Source: Rhodohalobacter halophilus (GTDB lineage: Bacteria; Bacteroidota; Rhodothermia; Balneolales; Balneolaceae). From it: a stretch of 64,000 bases of DNA. The stretch covers positions 1 to 64,000 of the forward strand of contig NZ_MDWE01000011.1 in NCBI RefSeq assembly GCF_001715195.1, read 5' to 3'. Below are positions 17,818 through 27,869 of this stretch, piece by piece. The notes beneath the pieces are model-generated. The model worked only from the letters and a program-made list of their open reading frames with translations, was not told where the DNA came from and did no database searches. The position numbers and the translations under genes were made by a program. Every line of letters starts with the position of its first letter. Position 1 is the first letter of the stretch.

Positions 17818-18612
17818 TCAGGTGACACGAACGCGTTTCAGTAGTTTGCTGAACAAGCCCGGAACAAATCGTTTCAGGTAAACACCCATCAATTCAGCTC
17901 CGCCAAGATAGATCTCATCTTTCCCGGCGGCTAATTTCGGAATCAGCTTTTTGGCAAATTCCTCCGGAGGCATGGCGTTTTTCTGCCCTTTCCCCATCTT
18001 ATTAAATTTTTCACCCGACCCGGTCAGTGCATTGATGGTTACGTCTGTTTTTACATAACCGGGACAAACCAAGCTGACATTAACATTGTGTTCATATAGC
18101 TCCTGACGCAGCGAATCAAAATAGCCGTGCAGAGCATGTTTGGAAGCCGCATAGGTAGAGCGGAATTTTGTGCCAAACTTTCCCATCACACTGCTGATGA
18201 CCACAATGTGGCCTGATTTCTGTTTAATCATCTCGGGAAGAAGTGCTTTGGTTAGGCCAACGGTGCCGAAAAAGTTGACCTCCATCACCTTTCGAACGGT
18301 AGACATTTCAGTATCGACGGCGTAGGATCGCTGACTGACACCACCATTGTTGATGAGCATATCAACATGGCCATACATGGCGAGTGCCTCAACTGCCTTT
18401 GCTTCCATTTGATCTGCCTCAGCTAAGTCCAACGGTAAAATCTTGACACTCTCCTCGTGGTTTGAGCAGTTTTCCTTCACTCTTTCGAGCTCCCCGGTGC
18501 GCCTTGCCGAGAGAATTAAATGTGCTCCTTTCTTGTTAAACTCATACGCTAAAGCTTCACCAATTCCGGATGAAGCTCCGGTAATCCAAATAACTTTTTT
18601 CCGAAGTCCCAT
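17818..18612 (-). CDS. Short-chain dehydrogenase/reductase (DHRS7B-like)
   Basis: 264-residue Rossmann-fold oxidoreductase. The cofactor motif TGASSGIG is at residues 11-18, NNGG at 88-91, and the catalytic Ser-Tyr-Lys are at Ser140/141, Tyr154 and Lys158 (YAASK). The C-terminal region with VCPGYVKTDVTINALTG is typical of the classical SDRs grouped with DHRS7B. Arg38/Arg39 after the second strand favour NADP. The substrate is unknown. The gene is divergent from the response regulator with 152 bases between. Confidence 0.88.
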   Translation of the reverse strand: MGLRKKVIWITGASSGIGEALAYEFNKKGAHLILSARRTGELERVKENCSNHEESVKILPLDLAEADQMEAKAVEALAMYGHVDMLINNGGVSQRSYAVDTEMSTVRKVMEVNFFGTVGLTKALLPEMIKQKSGHIVVISSVMGKFGTKFRSTYAASKHALHGYFDSLRQELYEHNVNVSLVCPGYVKTDVTINALTGSGEKFNKMGKGQKNAMPPEEFAKKLIPKLAAGKDEIYLGGAELMGVYLKRFVPGLFSKLLKRVRVT

Positions 18613-18764
18613 TTTAAAAAAATTGATTCTATTTGTATAGAATATAGCCGATTCAAGGGCAACTCTAAATCAATTTGTGAAAGTCCGGGATGATATTCTG
18701 AATCTGATGCTGAATCTCTTATTTTAAGATAGTCTTAACCCGAAAAAGTATCGATCTGAAAAAC

Positions 18765-19460
18765 ATGCAGCCAAAACAGACAATTCTACTTGTAGAAGAT
18801 GAGGTGGAGCCGGCAGAGATGCTCGCTAACTATCTTGAAATGAATAACTTTAACGTTTTGATGGCGCATGAGGGAAAAAAGGCACTGGAGCTGATAGAGA
18901 AACATGCGAGCGATATTCACCTGGCGGTGCTTGATATTATGGTGCCTCATGTTGACGGTAAAGAGATCTGCAGTGTGATCCGTAAACATCCGGTGATGAG
19001 TGACATTCCGGTCATTTTTCTTACTGCAAAGGATAAAGAGAAGGATGAGATAGAGGGGTTGGAGCTGGGAGCCGATGATTATATTTCCAAACCGGCAAGT
19101 TTAAAGCTCGTGAAAGCTCATATAGAATCACTTCTGCGGCGACAACAGCCACAAACCAGCAAGTGGATACAGTATGGCGACCTTTTTCTGGATACAAGTG
19201 GAAAGGATCTCTATTACAAGGAGAGTCGGATTGAGCTGACATCCACCGAATACGCCATTGCAGAGATGTTTTTTCAAAACCCGAAACGTGTCTACTCCCG
19301 GCAGGAGATTCTGGAACACATTGGCGGTGATGATCGATTCGTATTTGACAGGACTGTGGATGTTCACATCAAAAACCTCAGACTTAAGCTTGGGGAAGCT
19401 TCAGATATGATTAAGACCTACCGGGGACTGGGTTACGGCATGAACCGGGATCTGTTATAG
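18765..19460 (+). CDS. OmpR-family response regulator
   Basis: 231 residues: a receiver domain (1-120; acidic pocket Glu11/Asp12, phospho-acceptor Asp57, Thr88, Lys109) and an OmpR/PhoB winged-helix DNA-binding domain (about 135-230, ending in KTYRGLGYGM). It regulates transcription in response to the kinase encoded one base downstream (stop at 19460, kinase ATG at 19462). Target genes are unknown; the convergent aquaporin gene is a neighbour but there is no site evidence linking it. Confidence 0.93.
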   Translation: MQPKQTILLVEDEVEPAEMLANYLEMNNFNVLMAHEGKKALELIEKHASDIHLAVLDIMVPHVDGKEICSVIRKHPVMSDIPVIFLTAKDKEKDEIEGLELGADDYISKPASLKLVKAHIESLLRRQQPQTSKWIQYGDLFLDTSGKDLYYKESRIELTSTEYAIAEMFFQNPKRVYSRQEILEHIGGDDRFVFDRTVDVHIKNLRLKLGEASDMIKTYRGLGYGMNRDLL

Positions 19461-19461
19461 T

Positions 19462-20856
19462 ATGAGTATACGTTCAAAACTTGCCTGGACATTCATTCTG
19501 CTACTGATTTTTGGTATTACGGCTATCAGCAGCTACTCCATTCTGTTTATCAGAAATTATCTTCTCACCGAAGGAGAGCTTCAAATTATAAACGATACCG
19601 AGTGGCTGTCCATCACCATTCAAAACTTACGGATTGATGGAGATTTTGAAACCAACCTGAATGAAGCCGCACGGACCTCGGGGTACAAAATTGCCGTGTA
19701 TGATCAGGATGGGGAGCTATTTGCTGAGGTGCCATACCATTCGGAGCGTACGGCACCTGGCCAGATCGATGGAATGACGTCATCTTTCGAACAGTCGGAA
19801 CGGGGAGTTTTGCTCCAAAACAGATCGGATAGCGATGAGTTACGGGCATTCTATGAGGTTCAGAACTCTCAAAATCCTATACGATATCTTCTGATCAGTA
19901 TTGAAAAAGATCAGATATATGAACCCATAAAAACAATTCGGTGGATTATATACACGGGGATGTTCATCTCCATATTTCTGGTGATATCTGTGAGTATTTT
20001 GTTTTCGCGATACATTGCCAGTCCCATTTTACAGCTCGAATCTGCCGCCCGCGACATTGCGGAGGGGAATGTGGACCGAACACTGAATTTGGATCGGAAG
20101 GATGAGTTTGGGCAGTTGGCGAAATCACTGAATCGAATGGCGGAGCGGTTTAGGTCGGATAATGAAGAGATGAAAAAACTGTATGAAAAACAGAGTCAGT
20201 TTTTCGCCGACATCACGCACGAAATTCGCAACCCGCTTCACACAATTTCGGGTTCGCTTGAGATGCTGGAGCTGAACAGTTTAACGGATGAACAGAGAGA
20301 GCACTACCTCAAAACGGCTGCGCGGCAGGCAGAGAGAATTAACCGGCTTTTTGTTGATTTAAAAACTCTTCAGCACTACGATTCTGACTCACATTTTATT
20401 GAGAAACAGAATTTTGATATCAAGGAAATTGTCACTCAGGTGGTGAGTATATATCGAGTAAAAGCGAAGGAGAAGGGAATTGAGATCAAATACGAAGGGG
20501 ATTCTGCCAGAGTTTATGCAGATCCCAATAAGATAGAGCAGGTACTTGAAAACTTGATTTCGAACGCGGTTAAGTATACAAACAGGGGCAAAATTAAGGT
20601 GCGTGTAGAAAAAGGCAGCGATGATTGCAGTGTTTTTATAGATGACACCGGGATTGGAATTTCAAACGAGCATCTCGACAGGCTTTTTGATCGATTTTAC
20701 AGAACAGACAAGGCTCGCTCAAGGGATAAGGGGGGCACCGGTTTGGGGCTTGCAGTAGTAAAGAGCATTCTGAGTGCACACGGCACTGATATTCAAGTAA
20801 ATAGCACTCCCGGTAAAGGCTCTTCGTTTTGGTTTACCCTACCGGCTTCGGGCTGA
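19462..20856 (+). CDS. Sensor histidine kinase with HAMP domain
   Basis: 464-residue membrane kinase: first transmembrane segment about 9-30, a periplasmic sensor region of about 130 residues without a recognised fold, second segment about 162-182, HAMP (183-235), HisKA with His253 in ADITHEIRNPLH, and HATPase with N box (LENLISNAVKYT), G1 (DDTGIGIS) and G2 (GGTGLGL). It pairs with the OmpR-type regulator immediately upstream. The 3' end overlaps the convergent aquaporin gene by 18 bases. Confidence 0.94.
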   Translation: MSIRSKLAWTFILLLIFGITAISSYSILFIRNYLLTEGELQIINDTEWLSITIQNLRIDGDFETNLNEAARTSGYKIAVYDQDGELFAEVPYHSERTAPGQIDGMTSSFEQSERGVLLQNRSDSDELRAFYEVQNSQNPIRYLLISIEKDQIYEPIKTIRWIIYTGMFISIFLVISVSILFSRYIASPILQLESAARDIAEGNVDRTLNLDRKDEFGQLAKSLNRMAERFRSDNEEMKKLYEKQSQFFADITHEIRNPLHTISGSLEMLELNSLTDEQREHYLKTAARQAERINRLFVDLKTLQHYDSDSHFIEKQNFDIKEIVTQVVSIYRVKAKEKGIEIKYEGDSARVYADPNKIEQVLENLISNAVKYTNRGKIKVRVEKGSDDCSVFIDDTGIGISNEHLDRLFDRFYRTDKARSRDKGGTGLGLAVVKSILSAHGTDIQVNSTPGKGSSFWFTLPASG

Positions 20857-21459
20857 CAACAGCCGGTGAACATACGAAGCTGTGAGCCCGCCAATTAACG
20901 GACTGAAAAGATAGAAGGGCAGGTTGATGTAGAAACTGCCGTTGTTTAAAAAGTCAGCTGAGGCATATCCAATGCTCAATGCGGGATTCAGGCCTATTCC
21001 CGAATAAATTTCTGAAAAGAGATAACAAGCACCGAGAGTTCCGCCTACCATCAAACCATATACCGGATTTTTTCTATTCTTGTTTGGATAGATGAACTTT
21101 AAAAAGGTGAGTACAAAAATAAATGAGAAGAAAAACTCTACAGCGGCAAACTGTAGAAGTCCGGTGCCGGAAGCGGGTTCGGTGAGGAATGTGGATCCGT
21201 TCAGCCACCAAATAAAGCCGGCTGCTGCTATCGCCCCGGTAATTTGAAAAGTGAAATATGGAAACAGTTTACTTGTTGGGATTTCGTCAGAAGCCCAGGA
21301 GGCAAGGGTTACGGCAGGATTAAAATGCGCCCCGGAGTGGTCTGCTCCAATGTAAACCAAGGCAGCAAGTAATAGACCAATTGCCAATAAGTTACCGGAA
21401 ATCCCTAAAGCTGTTACCAATAAAAAAGTACCGAAAAACTCGATAGAATATTTGAGCAT
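20839..21459 (-). CDS. Aquaporin/glycerol-facilitator family channel (MIP)
   Basis: 206-residue membrane channel with six hydrophobic spans and two half-helices. The first NPA box is at residues 47-49 (GAHFNPAVTLASW) and the second at 158-160 (GIGLNPALSIG). In typical aquaporins the second box is followed by Arg, which forms the selectivity filter; here the residue is Leu161. That departs from both water and glycerol channels, so solute specificity is open. It is shorter than E. coli AqpZ (231 residues). The upstream 319-base gap separates it from the divergent heme operon. Confidence 0.88.
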   Translation of the reverse strand: MLKYSIEFFGTFLLVTALGISGNLLAIGLLLAALVYIGADHSGAHFNPAVTLASWASDEIPTSKLFPYFTFQITGAIAAAGFIWWLNGSTFLTEPASGTGLLQFAAVEFFFSFIFVLTFLKFIYPNKNRKNPVYGLMVGGTLGACYLFSEIYSGIGLNPALSIGYASADFLNNGSFYINLPFYLFSPLIGGLTASYVHRLLSARSR

Positions 21460-21778: not shown

Positions 21779-22900
21779 ATGCGTATTGGCGTAGTTTTGA
21801 TGAACCTGGGCGGGCCGACCCATGAAAATAATGTTCGAACATTTTTAAAAAATCTCTTCAGTGACGAGGATATCATCAAGCTGGGGGGTGGGACAACTCA
21901 AAACATTTTTGCAAATGTTATTTCGAAGTTTCGTGCCCCGTCTGTCGCTGAGGACTACAAGGAGATCAACGGATGCCCAAAAGGGTGTACGGGAAACAAA
22001 CACTGCTTCAACCGGCAGAATAAGGAGGTTTCTACCTGCTGTTCCCCGATCAACGGATTGACGGAGAGTCAGCGTCGTGGTCTGGAAAAGATGTTCAAAA
22101 AGATACTTCCGGAGCATGAGGTTAAAGTTTACACCTGTATGCGCTACTGGCTTCCATTTGCAGATCAGATCATGGATGACATGGTGGAGGATGGAATAAC
22201 GCACACGGTATTAATGCCTCTCTACCCTCAGTTTTCCTGGACAACCACCGGTAGCAGTTTCAGGGACTGGGAGAATTGGATTCAGAAGAAATTTCCTAAC
22301 GGTGATAAGCCGTGGAAAGAGTTTCATGTGAAGAACTATTACAAGAACGAGGAGTATTTGAGTGCCATTAACGATCGAATTGATGAGGCACTATCTGAGC
22401 TGGATGAAGAGACTCGCGAAAAGACGCACTTTATTTTTAGTGCGCATGGAACACCACTGCTCGAGGTAAGAAGCGGCGATCCTTATACGGTTGAAATAAA
22501 AGAGACGATGGAGGCTGTGATGGAGCGGCGAGAGGATAAAAACTCCTACTGGCTTGGTTTTCAGTCAAAAGTTGGGCCTCAAAAATGGACGCAACCCAAT
22601 ACGGAAGAGTTGGTGATGCGTCATATTGAGTATGGTATTAAAAACTTCCTGATGATTCCGATCGCTTTTGTAACGGATCACATTGAAACACTTTATGAGT
22701 TGGGTGTTGAATTGGTTGAGGATCTGGAAGAGGAAGGGTACGAAATTGAAAACATCAAGGTGATGAAGGGGCTGAATGATCACCCCGGATTTATTAAGGC
22801 GTTGGCAGAAGAGACGTTAAATGTACTGAAGCATGAAATTCCGGCCGATGCTGTAGAATGGGATAACACTGAAGCGAAAAAGAAAGCAGCAACAACATAA
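21779..22900 (+). CDS. hemH: Ferrochelatase with Cys-rich insertion
   Basis: 373-residue enzyme that inserts Fe2+ into protoporphyrin IX. Family landmarks are LMNLGGPTHENNV (8-20), the catalytic-His motif FSAHGTPL and PIAFVTDHIETLYEL. The usual GG-SPI loop is interrupted after residue 64 by about 22 residues containing Cys66, Cys70, Cys76, Cys87 and Cys88. An internal Cys-rich segment binding a [2Fe-2S] cluster is known for one class of bacterial ferrochelatases, so a cluster here is likely but inferred. It is the first gene of the hem operon; hemA starts 5 bases after the stop. Confidence 0.94.
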   Translation: MRIGVVLMNLGGPTHENNVRTFLKNLFSDEDIIKLGGGTTQNIFANVISKFRAPSVAEDYKEINGCPKGCTGNKHCFNRQNKEVSTCCSPINGLTESQRRGLEKMFKKILPEHEVKVYTCMRYWLPFADQIMDDMVEDGITHTVLMPLYPQFSWTTTGSSFRDWENWIQKKFPNGDKPWKEFHVKNYYKNEEYLSAINDRIDEALSELDEETREKTHFIFSAHGTPLLEVRSGDPYTVEIKETMEAVMERREDKNSYWLGFQSKVGPQKWTQPNTEELVMRHIEYGIKNFLMIPIAFVTDHIETLYELGVELVEDLEEEGYEIENIKVMKGLNDHPGFIKALAEETLNVLKHEIPADAVEWDNTEAKKKAATT

Positions 22901-22905
22901 TTAGG

Positions 22906-24168
22906 ATGGTTCATCCAACGATACAGGATTTTGTAGTTATTGGGATCAATCACTGGGATGCACCGGTTGAAGTTCGGGAGAAGTTCAGCCTGAGTGATGA
23001 AGGGAAAGATCTGTTGATTCAGGGTGCCCGGCGTGAAGGGATTAACAGCCTCTTTCTGGTTTCTACGTGTAATCGCACGGAGATCTTTGCCCAGAATGTA
23101 TCCACCCGGGAACTGATTCGCCTCCTGACCAATTATTCGAATGGAACTCTGGATGAGTTTCATCGATATGGGTTTGAACACGAAGGTGAGCGTGCAGTTC
23201 AGCATTTGTTTAAAGTGGCAACCGGACTGGATTCACAGATACTGGGTGACCTACAGATTGTAAAACAGGTAAAAGAGGGATACGAATATGCCGCCCGGCA
23301 GGAGATGGTATCGGGCGAATTTCATCGGCTGATGCAGCATGTGTTCCGGGCTCATAAGCGATCCAGAAATGAGACCTCCCTGGGGCAAGGCGCTGCCACA
23401 GTTGCCTATGCGGCCGTGCAATTCGCAATGCGAACCTTTGATAATTTGGCCAATAAAAATATTCTGTTGGTTGGGACCGGGAAAATTGGAAAAGTAACCT
23501 GTAAAAATCTGGTCAATCTCGGTGCAAGTAAATTAACGTTGATCAACCGCACCCGCGACCGTGCAGAGTTTGTGGCTGATAAGTTCAATCTTGAGGTTGC
23601 CGATATGGCAAATTTACCCGAGCAAATTGCTGAAGCCGATCTTGTAATTGTGGCAACCGGTTCAACCGAACCTGTAATTCGCCCCGAACACATGCAGCCG
23701 TCGATGGAGAACCCGAAATTTAAGGTGATGCTCGATCTGTCTGTTCCTCGAAATATTGACCCAAATGTGGCTACTCTCGATTTTGTGGATGTTGCCAATA
23801 TGGATATGCTTGGTGATGTGACTGACGAAGCGTATAAAAAAAGGGAGCAGCAGGTGCCGGCGGTAAAAAAAATTATCAGTGAAGAGTTTTCTGACTATCA
23901 GCTTTGGCTGAATGAACAGCGGGTTGTACCTACGATCAAAGCGTTAACACAGAAGTTTGAATCGATCCGGGGGGATGAATTGGAGTTTTTCCGGAACAAG
24001 ATTGAGACGGATGATTTTGATAAAATTGAGAATATGACTCGCCGGATAGTGAATAAAATTGCTGCTTACAGTATAGAGCACCTGAGGGATCATCACGACT
24101 CCGAAGAGGTGGCCGAGATGGTGAAAGAGATGTTTAAACTCGAAGCCCGGAACGGAAATCATGAGTAA
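22906..24168 (+). CDS. hemA: Glutamyl-tRNA reductase
   Basis: 420-residue NADPH enzyme that reduces Glu-tRNA(Glu) to glutamate-1-semialdehyde, the committed step of C5-pathway tetrapyrrole synthesis. The catalytic Cys lies in LVSTCNRTEIF, followed by the GLDSQILGDLQIVKQVK segment, an NADP-binding LLVGTGKIG motif and a C-terminal dimerisation helix region. The 3' end overlaps hemC by 8 bases. Its presence shows the C5 rather than the Shemin route. hemL and hemB, also needed, are outside the window. Confidence 0.97.
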   Translation: MVHPTIQDFVVIGINHWDAPVEVREKFSLSDEGKDLLIQGARREGINSLFLVSTCNRTEIFAQNVSTRELIRLLTNYSNGTLDEFHRYGFEHEGERAVQHLFKVATGLDSQILGDLQIVKQVKEGYEYAARQEMVSGEFHRLMQHVFRAHKRSRNETSLGQGAATVAYAAVQFAMRTFDNLANKNILLVGTGKIGKVTCKNLVNLGASKLTLINRTRDRAEFVADKFNLEVADMANLPEQIAEADLVIVATGSTEPVIRPEHMQPSMENPKFKVMLDLSVPRNIDPNVATLDFVDVANMDMLGDVTDEAYKKREQQVPAVKKIISEEFSDYQLWLNEQRVVPTIKALTQKFESIRGDELEFFRNKIETDDFDKIENMTRRIVNKIAAYSIEHLRDHHDSEEVAEMVKEMFKLEARNGNHE

Positions 24169-25078
24169 ACAGATCATTCGTATTGGCACCCGCGACAGTG
24201 AGCTGGCCACATGGCAAGCCAAACTTGTTGAGACGGAACTTAAAATCCTTGGATTTGATGCAGAGCTTGTTTTTGTAAAATCGGAGGGGGATCTTGATCT
24301 TACAACTCCACTTACCGAAATGGGCGGGAAAGGAGTTTTTACCAAAGCCCTGGATGACGCACTTCTCGAGGGAAGAATTGACCTCGCCGTACACTCCTAC
24401 AAAGATCTGCCAACGGAAAACCCACTGCCGCTGAAAATCAGTGCGGTGATGGAGAGGGAGGATCCCAGGGATGCGCTTGTGGCTCCCAAAGGAGGAGCAA
24501 TTTTAAAAGATGAAGGTATTGGCGCGGTAGTGGCAACCAGTTCGAACCGGCGCCGTGCACAGTGGCTGCATCGTTATCCAAATCATGAAATTACAAATAT
24601 ACGCGGGAACGTGAATACCCGGCTTCGGAAAGTGAAAGAAAATGGCTGGGATGGAGCAATTTTTGCTGCAGCCGGGCTGAAACGAATCGGACTAGATCAT
24701 CATATCTCTCAATATCTTGATTGGATGGTGCCGGCCCCGGCCCAGGGTGCAATGGCCGTGATGATTCGTGAGGATGACGATCAAATGTATAAAATTACAT
24801 CAAAGCTGAATCACGAACAGACGGCTATTTGTACATCTATAGAGCGCGAACTCTTAAACGAAATGGAAGCCGGTTGCAGTGCACCTGTCGGGGCATATGC
24901 CGAAATAGATGGAAATCAGCTCCATCTCGCTGCCGTTGCACTTACTGTAGATGGAAAAACACAATTTGATATAGAGCTGTCTTCCGGCGTTGATGAGAGC
25001 GAAGGGCTAGGCAGAGAAGCCGCCCGTAAGCTGCTCGAAATGGGGGCAGCTGACATCGTATCTGATCTGCGTTCCTGA
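24161..25078 (+). CDS. hemC: Hydroxymethylbilane synthase (porphobilinogen deaminase)
   Basis: 305-residue enzyme that condenses four porphobilinogen molecules into hydroxymethylbilane. Landmarks: IGTRDSELATWQA at the N-terminus, the LPTENP and AVHSYKDLP loop, SSNRRRAQ, NIRGNVNTRLRK, and the dipyrromethane-cofactor cysteine in EAGCSAPVGAYA (about residue 243). Length is normal for the family. It starts within the last codons of hemA (8-base overlap) and is followed by hemD after 18 bases. Confidence 0.97.
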   Translation: MSKQIIRIGTRDSELATWQAKLVETELKILGFDAELVFVKSEGDLDLTTPLTEMGGKGVFTKALDDALLEGRIDLAVHSYKDLPTENPLPLKISAVMEREDPRDALVAPKGGAILKDEGIGAVVATSSNRRRAQWLHRYPNHEITNIRGNVNTRLRKVKENGWDGAIFAAAGLKRIGLDHHISQYLDWMVPAPAQGAMAVMIREDDDQMYKITSKLNHEQTAICTSIERELLNEMEAGCSAPVGAYAEIDGNQLHLAAVALTVDGKTQFDIELSSGVDESEGLGREAARKLLEMGAADIVSDLRS

Positions 25079-25096: not shown

Positions 25097-25852
25097 ATGC
25101 CTACCGCCGGAAGTCATAAAATTTTGGTCACCCGGGATTTGTCAGATGATCAGATAACCCTTGCCGAAGAAGTTGGCCTGAAAGTAGTGATTGAGCCGGC
25201 CATCGATTTTGAATTCCGAACCGACTGGAGTTCGGTGGTAGCCACAATTGACGAGTCGGCCAACCCGATTTTTGCATTCACTAGCCAAAATGGAGTAACC
25301 GGCCTGAAAAAACTGCTCAGCCGGGGATACCAGCTTCCAAAAGAATCGGTTATTTATGCAGTGGGCGGAAAAACAGCAGAAGCTTTGAGTGAGCTGGGTT
25401 TTACAGCGATTATACCTGAACTGCAGTATGGAGAGCATTTAGGCCGAAAAATTGCAGAAGATGTTCAAGCTGCTGACATCAAGGATGTGACGGTTATTCA
25501 TTTTTGCGGAAATCGACGGCGTGAAGAGATGCGGCAGGTTCTGGAGAATTCCGGAGTAAAGGTAAAAGATATTGTAGTGTACAACACAATTCTAAACAAC
25601 ATGGATATTAACCTTGATGGCGTTGAAGGAATCCTCTTCTACAGCCCAAGTGCAGTGGAGGCATTTCGGAAAAGCGGAGGTTTTAGGGGAAAGAATTTGC
25701 CGGAACTGTTTGCCATTGGTCAGACAACAGGTCAGGAACTGAGTATTGAATCGGGCCGAAACGTGCATATTTCACCGGAGCCCGATACCGAACAATTATT
25801 GAAATTTACTGCCCGGATATTGAGCGAGAGTTCACACAGCGAAAAGGCATAG
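25097..25852 (+). CDS. hemD: Uroporphyrinogen-III synthase
   Basis: 251-residue HemD-fold protein that closes hydroxymethylbilane to uroporphyrinogen III with inversion of ring D. The family is poorly conserved; support comes from ILVTR at the start, FTSQNGV, the FFYSPSAVEAF-like block (LFYSPSAVEAFRK) and AIGQTTGQEL near the C-terminus. Position between hemC and hemE makes the assignment firm. The start at 25097 gives a short leader MPTAGSHK before the first strand. Confidence 0.92.
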   Translation: MPTAGSHKILVTRDLSDDQITLAEEVGLKVVIEPAIDFEFRTDWSSVVATIDESANPIFAFTSQNGVTGLKKLLSRGYQLPKESVIYAVGGKTAEALSELGFTAIIPELQYGEHLGRKIAEDVQAADIKDVTVIHFCGNRRREEMRQVLENSGVKVKDIVVYNTILNNMDINLDGVEGILFYSPSAVEAFRKSGGFRGKNLPELFAIGQTTGQELSIESGRNVHISPEPDTEQLLKFTARILSESSHSEKA

Positions 25853-25880: not shown

Positions 25881-26924
25881 ATGACGAGTAATTTTCCGGA
25901 ATTAAAAAATGATCTGTTTCTGAGGGCCCTGCGGGGTGAAGAGGTGGAACGGCCACCTGTCTGGATGATGCGACAGGCCGGGCGCTACCTTCCGCAATAC
26001 ATGAAACTTCGTAAGAAATATACCTTCTTTGAACGTGTTGAGACTCCTGAATTGGCTTGTGAAATTACTATCCAGCCAATCGATGAGTTGGAGCCGGATG
26101 CGGCTATTATCTTTTCAGACATTCTCACGGTACCGCAGGCGCTGAACATTGATGTGCAAATGGTGCCGGGTAAGGGGCCTGTGATGGGGAATCCAATCCG
26201 GACGGAAGATGACGCCTTTGCAATTCTGGCAGAAGATGTGCCACAAAAACTGAGCCATGTTATGGATGCCATCACCCTGACCCGAAAAGAGTTGAATGGC
26301 CGGGTTCCGTTGATCGGTTTTGCGGGAGCTCCCTGGACACTCTTTTGCTATATGGTTCAGGGCGAAGGTTCAAAAAACTTTGATAAAGCAAAGTCGTTTC
26401 TCTACCAGCACCCGGATGCATCGCGGCATGTGATGAAGGAGTTGACAAAAGCAACGATAGACTATCTGCAGGCACAAGTGAAAGCAGGTGCACAGGCCGT
26501 ACAGGTGTTTGACTCGTGGGCAGGCCTTCTCAGTCCTGATGATTTTAACGAGTGGGCACTGCCTTACCTGATGGAGATCACCCAGTCAATTAAAGATGTA
26601 CCGGTGATTCTGTTTGCAAAAGGTTCATGGTATGCTCTTGAGCGGTTGAGCTATAAGAGCGGTGCGGCCGCACTTGGACTCGACTGGACCATAGCTCCGG
26701 AATTTGCCCGCGAAATAACAAGAAATCAGATCACTCTTCAGGGTAATTTTGATCCGACACATTTGTTGGCGCCAATCCCCGAAATTGAGAAGAAGACCAA
26801 GCGAATGATTGACCGGTTTGGCACGCAGAGGTATATCGCCAATCTCGGGCATGGAATTTTGCCTCATGTGCCTGTAGATCATGCACGTGCATTTGTTGAT
26901 AGTGTCAAAAATTACTCACAATAG
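25881..26924 (+). CDS. hemE: Uroporphyrinogen decarboxylase
   Basis: 347-residue cofactor-free enzyme converting uroporphyrinogen III to coproporphyrinogen III. The signature PPVWMMRQAGRYLPQY (residues 21-36) is complete, the catalytic Asp is in IIFSDILT, and GFAGAPWTLFCYMVQG is the second signature. Near the C-terminus GNFDPTHLLAP and NLGHGILPHVPVDHA are as in other HemE proteins. It lies 28 bases after hemD and 24 bases before hemF. Confidence 0.98.
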   Translation: MTSNFPELKNDLFLRALRGEEVERPPVWMMRQAGRYLPQYMKLRKKYTFFERVETPELACEITIQPIDELEPDAAIIFSDILTVPQALNIDVQMVPGKGPVMGNPIRTEDDAFAILAEDVPQKLSHVMDAITLTRKELNGRVPLIGFAGAPWTLFCYMVQGEGSKNFDKAKSFLYQHPDASRHVMKELTKATIDYLQAQVKAGAQAVQVFDSWAGLLSPDDFNEWALPYLMEITQSIKDVPVILFAKGSWYALERLSYKSGAAALGLDWTIAPEFAREITRNQITLQGNFDPTHLLAPIPEIEKKTKRMIDRFGTQRYIANLGHGILPHVPVDHARAFVDSVKNYSQ

Positions 26925-26948: not shown

Positions 26949-27869
26949 ATGTCATCCATCAGAAAAGAATTTACCGGCTACATTGAAAATCTTCAGGATG
27001 AGATCTGCACGGCACTGGAAGAAATAGATGGTGTAGCTGCGTTCCGGGAAGATTTGTGGGAACGGGACGGAGGCGGCGGCGGACGAACCCGGGTTATCGA
27101 AAAGGGAGATGTTTTTGAAAAAGGCGGGGTAAATATTTCAACGGTTTACGGTGAACTGCCCGGTCCTATAAAAAAGCATTTTGATGTAGAACACGGCTGG
27201 TTCTGGGCCGGTGGGATTTCTCTGGTTATCCATCCCAAAAACCCCATGGTTCCAACCGTTCATGCCAACTTTCGATATTTTGAGCTCTATGATGATCCGG
27301 AAATGAAAACTCGCAAAGATGGATGGTTTGGTGGTGGTGCTGATCTTACACCGTATTATCTGTGGCCGGAGGATGCAGCCCATTTTCACAAGGTCTTCAA
27401 AGAAGCATGCGACCGGCACGGGGAGGATTTATATCCAAAGTTTAAGAAACAGTGCGACGAATATTTTTATAATTCTCATCGCGGGGAAGCGCGCGGAATC
27501 GGGGGGCTCTTTTTCGATTACTTGAGGGAGGATGATCAGCGCTCAATTTCTGAATGGCAGCAGTTTACCCAGGATGTTGGGTCAGTATTCATAGAGTCAT
27601 ATCTGCCAATCGTAAAAGATCGTATTCAGGAACCCTACAACCGTGCACAGCGATATTGGCAGGAGGTTCGCAGGGGACGGTATGTGGAGTTTAACTTGAT
27701 TCACGACCGGGGAACACTTTTTGGTTTAAAAACAAATGGCCGGATCGAATCTATCCTGATGAGTTTACCGCCACAAGTTCGCTGGGATTACGATTTTGAA
27801 CCAAGAGACGGTTCGCGCGAAGCGGAGCTGATCGATGTGCTCAAAAACCCACGGGACTGGGTAAAATAA
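26949..27869 (+). CDS. hemF: Oxygen-dependent coproporphyrinogen III oxidase
   Basis: 306-residue aerobic enzyme that oxidises coproporphyrinogen III to protoporphyrinogen IX using O2. Family motifs are FREDLWERDGGGGGRTRV (31-48), VHANFRYFE, WFGGGADLTPYY and the C-terminal VEFNLIHDRGTLFGLKTNGR with SLPPQVRW. Its presence rather than hemN fits an aerobic organism. It is the last gene of the hem operon; the hairpin just beyond it has its U-run on the opposite strand. Confidence 0.98.
   Translation: MSSIRKEFTGYIENLQDEICTALEEIDGVAAFREDLWERDGGGGGRTRVIEKGDVFEKGGVNISTVYGELPGPIKKHFDVEHGWFWAGGISLVIHPKNPMVPTVHANFRYFELYDDPEMKTRKDGWFGGGADLTPYYLWPEDAAHFHKVFKEACDRHGEDLYPKFKKQCDEYFYNSHRGEARGIGGLFFDYLREDDQRSISEWQQFTQDVGSVFIESYLPIVKDRIQEPYNRAQRYWQEVRRGRYVEFNLIHDRGTLFGLKTNGRIESILMSLPPQVRWDYDFEPRDGSREAELIDVLKNPRDWVK

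Follow-up and report, generated by a model that had tools for sequence, protein, structure and literature searches.

A cysteine-rich insert between the propionate-6 residues of Balneolales ferrochelatases: a putative third location for a [2Fe-2S] cluster

Introduction

One of the persistent questions about ferrochelatases, open since 1994 according to a 2021 survey of the family, is why so many of them carry a [2Fe-2S] cluster (PMC8529089). In that survey the ligand cysteines, recognised by the motif CX(1,11)CX(1,11)C, lie in one of two locations, either within a segment of 22-34 residues inserted inside the chain or at the C-terminus, and the insertion was recorded in 43 of 46 Bacteroidetes sequences as well as in some Betaproteobacteria (PMC8529089). 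The window considered here, a stretch of 64,000 nucleotides from Rhodohalobacter halophilus (contig NZ_MDWE01000011.1, positions 1 to 64,000), encodes a ferrochelatase with a short segment rich in cysteines, and an earlier note made from the sequence alone viewed this protein as another member of the group with an internal cluster. The locus raises the question of whether this segment is the described insertion, and, if it is something else, what its cysteines might bind. The explanation that we favour, with somewhat better than even confidence, is that of a Balneolales ferrochelatase with a loop insert between its two propionate-6 residues and a putative [2Fe-2S] cluster at a third location.

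The ferrochelatase and its heme locus

The open reading frame at positions 21,779-22,900 of the window (forward strand, as are the residue positions given below) encodes a protein of 373 amino acids that is assigned to hemH by the Pfam profile Ferrochelatase (PF00762; E 2.9e-89, 299.6 bits against a cut-off of 27), by TIGR00109 (E 2.6e-78, 263.7 against a cut-off of 124.6) and by its AlphaFold2 model. The model, computed from the window protein and 47 of the 52 distinct relatives among 53 related loci, has a mean pLDDT of 86.1 and a pTM of 0.86, and it superposes on human ferrochelatase with a Z score of 40.0 and an rmsd of 1.8 over 325 aligned residues; searches with Foldseek and VIA-align 2 ranked ferrochelatases ahead of other folds of the chelatase kind and were uninformative on the insert. 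A genome-wide profile search gave hemH as the sole PF00762 match, with no second ferrochelatase in the source genome.

Alignment with PDB sequences places the residues of the active site, and the active-site lip of the window protein aligns with that of the human enzyme. With human residues numbered as the PDB chain plus 64, which is consistent with the S197C entry 4mk4, the equivalents are Arg52 (21,932-21,934) for human Arg115, Tyr60 (21,956-21,958) for Tyr123, Ser89 (22,043-22,045) for Ser130, His223 (22,445-22,447) for the catalytic His263 and Glu303 (22,685-22,687) for Glu343. In the human enzyme Ser130 and Tyr123 are described as hydrogen-bonded to propionate 6 of the porphyrin, and Arg115 as forming a salt bridge with propionate 7 (PMC9133952). 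The genomic context is that of a protoporphyrin (PpfC) ferrochelatase: HemY is present (over its cut-off, E 1.7e-94), ChdC is absent (no PF06778 match in the source genome, in a search whose control was positive in seven of 14 genomes) and HemJ likewise gave no match in this genome, a combination that fits the protoporphyrin pathway. Judged by its sequence, the window protein is an intact ferrochelatase of the protoporphyrin type, from the order Balneolales.

The gene heads a series of heme genes, comprising hemA (glutamyl-tRNA reductase, 22,906-24,168, TIGR01035 over cut-off), hemC (hydroxymethylbilane synthase, 24,161-25,078, TIGR00212 over cut-off), hemD (uroporphyrinogen-III synthase, 25,097-25,852, PF02602 with E 3.1e-32), hemE (uroporphyrinogen decarboxylase, 25,881-26,924, TIGR01464 over cut-off) and hemF (oxygen-dependent coproporphyrinogen oxidase, 26,949-27,869, NF003727 over cut-off), all on the forward strand. 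The series had been called an aerobic heme operon, and the gene order with its oxygen-dependent hemF bears this out in part; the genome also encodes the oxygen-independent hemN, however, so that the pathway is not purely aerobic. At every locus with the loop insert that was compared hemA lies directly downstream of hemH, except at one (L010) whose sequence ends too soon. Upstream, an SDR gene and paired genes for a response regulator and a histidine kinase (17,818-20,856) precede hemH in an order conserved at many related loci, and an aquaporin-like (MIP) reading frame of 206 amino acids (20,839-21,459), whose profile match begins only at position 42, overlaps the histidine kinase gene at its end and is found in only some of the relatives. 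The best-matching locus, titled Chitinophagaceae, has the same gene order and a ferrochelatase 88-89% identical to that of the window, and probably comes from a mislabelled genome.

A cysteine-rich insert between two propionate-binding residues

The segment in question extends from residue 66 to residue 88 (21,974-22,042) and contains Cys66, Cys70, Cys76, Cys87 and Cys88 in the spacing CX3CX5CX10CC. Its extent can be measured from the landmarks on either side, as Tyr60, on the N-terminal side, and Ser89, which immediately follows Cys88, have 28 residues between them in the window protein, where human ferrochelatase has 6, a difference of 22 residues. The insert sits exactly between the equivalents of the two propionate-6 residues, and the earlier note was right about its size, its cysteines and its nearness to the porphyrin site. 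It is also where the structure model is weakest, with block means of 61-70 over residues 61-90; only the C-terminal tail scores lower.

The conservation of the insert was followed through 221 aligned rows, made up of the window, three sets of 53, 30 and 56 loci, 80 regions chosen among further matches and one plasmid record. The 53 loci come from named genomes, mostly metagenome genomes of Balneolaceae, with Fodinibius/Aliifodinibius and Rhodohalobacter sulfatireducens among the named strains. The loop insert is present in 89 rows (class A), including the window itself and a copy from its own genome, and some genomes are present in two of the collections; counted over residues 3-345, these rows represent 65 distinct proteins, and outside the insert they are 58-92% identical to the window protein. 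The number of residues between Tyr60 and Ser89 is 28 in all 89 and ranges from 6 to 15 in the 131 other rows, the fragment L046 being excluded. All five cysteines are invariant in the 89 rows, so that the conservation in close relatives on which the note's proposal depended is upheld. Many of the adjoining insert residues vary (positions 68, 71, 73, 75, 77, 80, 83 and 86 among them), and the contrast with the five fixed cysteines shows that the insert is neither a chance feature nor a fault of assembly; an assembly or sequencing artefact is ruled out by its occurrence in 89 rows and 65 distinct proteins. A sixth cysteine, Cys120, is present in only 62 of the 89 rows. The active-site equivalents Arg52, His223 and Glu303 are Arg, His and Glu in each of the 89, and Tyr60 and Ser89 are Tyr and Ser in every row that carries a motif of any of the three kinds described below.

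Comparison with the described cluster sites

Ferrochelatases with the internal [2Fe-2S] insertion, from Bacteroidetes, Myxococcus xanthus and others, share with the window protein the core, a cysteine-rich insert of similar size and a CC pair, and the window insert conforms to the published motif, with C66-X3-C70-X5-C76 inside 22 residues, at the lower end of the published range of 22-34 (PMC8529089). In the alignment, however, 47 rows (class B, defined by three or more cysteines within a segment at least 30 residues long that surrounds the site) carry their insertion, of 19-23 extra residues, at position 235, which lies 12 residues beyond the catalytic His. Most of these rows come from other families in the phylum; for many rows class and order were assigned from kinship codes and resemblance to named rows. 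The corresponding place in the window protein, Pro235-Tyr236 (22,481-22,486), has no insertion.

That position 235 is the described internal site is most likely, although this is deduced from insertion-bearing proteins other than the M. xanthus enzyme. The betaproteobacterial ferrochelatase of Caballeronia (L285) also has its insertion at position 235, and an alphaproteobacterial one (L220) has a CXC there, matching the legend of Fig. 3C of the survey, in which the CXC group is located where other enzymes carry the insertion (PMC8529089). Alignment with internal-insertion ferrochelatases, which the earlier note had proposed as a check, thus brings out a difference that it had missed: the window insert lies at 66-88 and theirs at 235, some 170 residues away, with conserved landmarks on both sides. 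The alignment with the 47 class B rows and the Caballeronia enzyme rules out that the window insert occupies the described internal site, and places it at what would be a third motif location in the ferrochelatase family.

The C-terminal location can be set aside as well. C-terminal [2Fe-2S] ferrochelatases, such as those of human, Caulobacter, Rhodothermus and Salinibacter, were recognised by three cysteines in the tail and one internal cysteine, as in the human protein, where Cys196 is the internal ligand. The tail of the window protein has no cysteine and the place of Cys196 is taken by Trp154 (22,238-22,240), which rules out a motif of this type; among the 89 insert-bearing rows this residue is Trp in 84, Tyr in three and Phe in two.

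The 221 rows divide into 89 with the loop insert, 47 with the insertion at position 235, 26 with the C-terminal motif (class C) and 59 with none (class N), and by the classification rule used no row carries two motifs. Class N includes the fragment L046, L220 and tails from the window's own class with one to four cysteines whose spacing misses the rule. Strict exclusivity is nevertheless put in doubt by a cysteine pair at positions 237-238, present without an insertion in all 26 class C rows and in 15 of the 59 class N rows, and in no row of class A (0 of 89) or class B; it may perhaps contribute another ligand to the C-terminal cluster. The pair sets a feature of the C-terminal type beside the site of the internal insertion, as expected from the survey's suggestion that the places for clusters adjoin one another, while the loop insert stays apart. 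Three second ferrochelatase copies from one family of the same class (L163, L164 and L176, f12) have tails with one or two cysteines, as if a C-terminal motif were decaying. Nine further rows (L265, L267-L273 and L275, of families f21, f24, f37 and f50) are divergent PF00762 paralogues with an altered propionate loop and an active-site text of the HGT type.

Phylogenetic placement

Could the window insert still belong to the described class, moved along the chain or misaligned, and share one origin with it? The similarity in length (22 residues here, and 19-23 extra ones across the 47 class B rows), the CC pair, which is shared with 38 of them, and the common phylum would favour such a history. 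The arrangement of the cysteines points the other way, as the commonest spacings in class B are CX2CX2CCX9C and CX5CCX9CX4C (11 of 47 rows each) and not CX3CX5CX10CC; nine of its rows have no CC pair and one has only three cysteines. The separation of the two sites by some 170 residues with conserved landmarks on both sides also speaks against it, as does the position of human His341 (22,679-22,681), which is Cys throughout the 47 class B rows but His in all 89 of class A and all 26 of class C.

Trees bear on the same question. In a main tree of 111 representatives, from which the columns of the insert, of position 235 and of the tail were removed, the 16 class A rows form one group with a support of 100, and all 37 class B rows, together with two class N rows, lie across a branch supported at 100 from them. 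L220 was flagged as a long branch in this tree; a more careful tree of 41 rows without it agrees, with supports of 100/100 for class A and 100/100 for class B, its rows (8 of the 16 A, 13 of the 37 B, 8 of the 16 C and 12 N) having been picked by hand and its groups named after the first tree. A clade of A and B forced on this hand-picked subset was rejected by the AU test, if mildly (p 0.038), and the mildness leaves something in favour of common descent. Taken with the alignment, we regard one common origin of the two inserts as very improbable. The window ferrochelatase, tested in this way for membership of the insertion-bearing class B, belongs instead to a different subfamily.

Nearest to class A are motif-less rows, some of them Ignavibacteriae by title, grouped with it at a support of 87 in the main tree; in the 41-row tree the eight class A rows group with six of the class N rows at 96/90. 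These motif-less ferrochelatases, whose loop has no insert, make up the subfamily closest to the window, and two of them, also Ignavibacteriae by title, are 47% and 45% identical to its protein (L053 and L054). C-terminal rows from the window's class fall with it on the same broad side of the tree, and differ in having tail cysteines and the pair at 237-238. The trees are unrooted, and whether inserts were gained or lost along these branches is a matter of interpretation.

Distribution of the insert

A degenerate pattern of 39 bases for residues 66-78, confirmed on the window, where it matches once (mean 0.00 in 100 shuffles), was run on 394 sampled genomes of the phylum. It matched 29 of them, 27 among the 52 Balneolales (all 10 genomes of the genus, 10 of the 35 from the rest of the family and all seven from the rest of the order) and two among the 342 others. 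Both matches outside the order (genomes G185 and G192) contain in-frame stop codons (TAA and TGA) and were dismissed as chance. One genome (G016) has an additional match away from its ferrochelatase, and a reversed control pattern matched once, in genome G399. Among the genomes sampled the insert is restricted to Balneolales.

Sampling beyond the phylum was thin, consisting of two plasmid records and four viral contigs. A plasmid search with 62 residues spanning the insert produced two matches, both meaningless (E 4 and 7); full-length searches returned 144 and 128 plasmid records, all below 60% identity and some of them chromosome-sized, of which L220 and L285 were taken up here. The scan of viral contigs yielded four loci, with the insert seen in none. 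It was likewise not seen in 22 added sequences from outside Balneolales, several of which are divergent and unsurely aligned and three of which (L230, L274 and L276) have no loop residues. Among the matches listed in the open literature there is no account of a ferrochelatase insert at this loop, nor of a Balneolota ferrochelatase. The string 'Balneol' does not occur in the main text of the 2021 survey, though Balneolota may be among its 46 Bacteroidetes sequences (PMC8529089).

What the cysteines may bind

The best reading of the insert is that four of its cysteines bind a [2Fe-2S] cluster. It follows from the five invariant cysteines, the CC pair, the size within 22-34 residues and the fit to the published motif, and we take it as probable on family precedent and conservation. 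With regard to the claim of another member of the cluster-bearing group, the protein is probably an iron-sulfur ferrochelatase, but one that differs from the described internal-insertion type in chain position and in subfamily. A point against the cluster is that five invariant cysteines are one more than a [2Fe-2S] site needs.

The same conservation of cysteines would result if the insert bound zinc or served as a thiol switch. A structural zinc site, with four cysteines as ligands and one to spare, would stiffen the active-site loop without any redox role, and a short loop that holds five cysteines along with invariant Gly69, Gly72, Asn78 and Ser85 (65 distinct proteins) and a near-invariant Arg79 (64 of 65) would suit a zinc knuckle equally well. 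The CC pair, however, matches the precedent of the [2Fe-2S] ferrochelatases, and those tested with comparable cysteine-rich insertions or tails bound [2Fe-2S] (PMC8529089), so that zinc seems unlikely to us.

Somewhat less likely again is a reading with no metal centre in the insert, be it a redox switch of the thiol/disulfide kind or a CP motif that binds heme and mediates product inhibition. A CC pair and spare cysteines would be in keeping with a thiol switch, yet such a switch would hardly need five invariant cysteines. CP motifs can bind heme, and Cys66-Pro67 forms a CP dipeptide in 56 of the 65 distinct proteins; in the other nine residue 67 is Thr although Cys66 is kept, which argues against this reading.

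On our reading a cysteine-rich insert of 22 residues evolved inside a loop of six residues flanked by the two propionate-6 residues, and, if it holds a cluster, four of its five cysteines would be the ligands, with at least one member of the CC pair probably among them; in a characterised enzyme both members of the pair are said to be ligands (PMC8529089). As the insert ends at the propionate-binding serine, the state of the cluster might affect porphyrin binding directly, and its loss or assembly could, more tentatively, couple heme output to iron-sulfur status. Such functional claims are weakened by the observation that bacterial enzymes which lose their cluster through Cys-to-Ser changes are reported to keep their activity (PMC8529089), so that in them, at least, the cluster is unlikely to be essential. 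The role of an iron/redox sensor, which the earlier note had offered, is speculation. A bolder version, in which the propionate-6 clamp holds a third, independently evolved [2Fe-2S] site whose state gates the porphyrin pocket, and in which Balneolaceae have swapped one design for another, is possible but on the doubtful side.

A probable exchange of heme loci within Balneolaceae

Some Balneolaceae have the position-235 design instead, with 12 rows from five genera (g4, g5, g8, g21 and g23), two of which (L057 and L159) represent one gene. In the main tree the five representatives of these rows form a group supported at 100 on the class B side. At five of the loci (L234-L237 and L239) hemH precedes hemA-C-D-E, from which it is separated by some 1.3-1.4 kb, and in the three loci where this gap was read a protoporphyrinogen oxidase gene (TIGR00562 over cut-off) occupies it. 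Their hemA sequences form a group of their own, at 100, apart from the hemA of loop-insert loci in a tree of 24 rows, two long rows of which were flagged. Three loci from genus g4 (L232, L233 and L240) have no other hem gene of the set within the stretch. We read this as the replacement of one heme locus by another within the family, the direction being inferred, and the replacing locus was probably transferred from Bacteroidia.

Eight other Balneolaceae genomes (G032, G101, G119, G174, G186, G190, G221 and G237), 98-99% complete, have no match for ferrochelatase and none for hemE, which was found in four other genomes of the same hemE search. They are probably heme auxotrophs.

Implications

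If the putative assignment is correct, clusters have been placed on ferrochelatase at three separate chain positions in evolution. A third location, in another subfamily and beside the porphyrin-binding residues, would argue that the cluster has been selected repeatedly, and this would limit the explanations that can be offered for its presence. The position of the insert allows the relation between cluster state and porphyrin binding to be tested directly, and the occurrence of two designs within Balneolaceae provides matched pairs for genetics and biochemistry, so that the function of the cluster would become testable by exchanging natural designs in one background.
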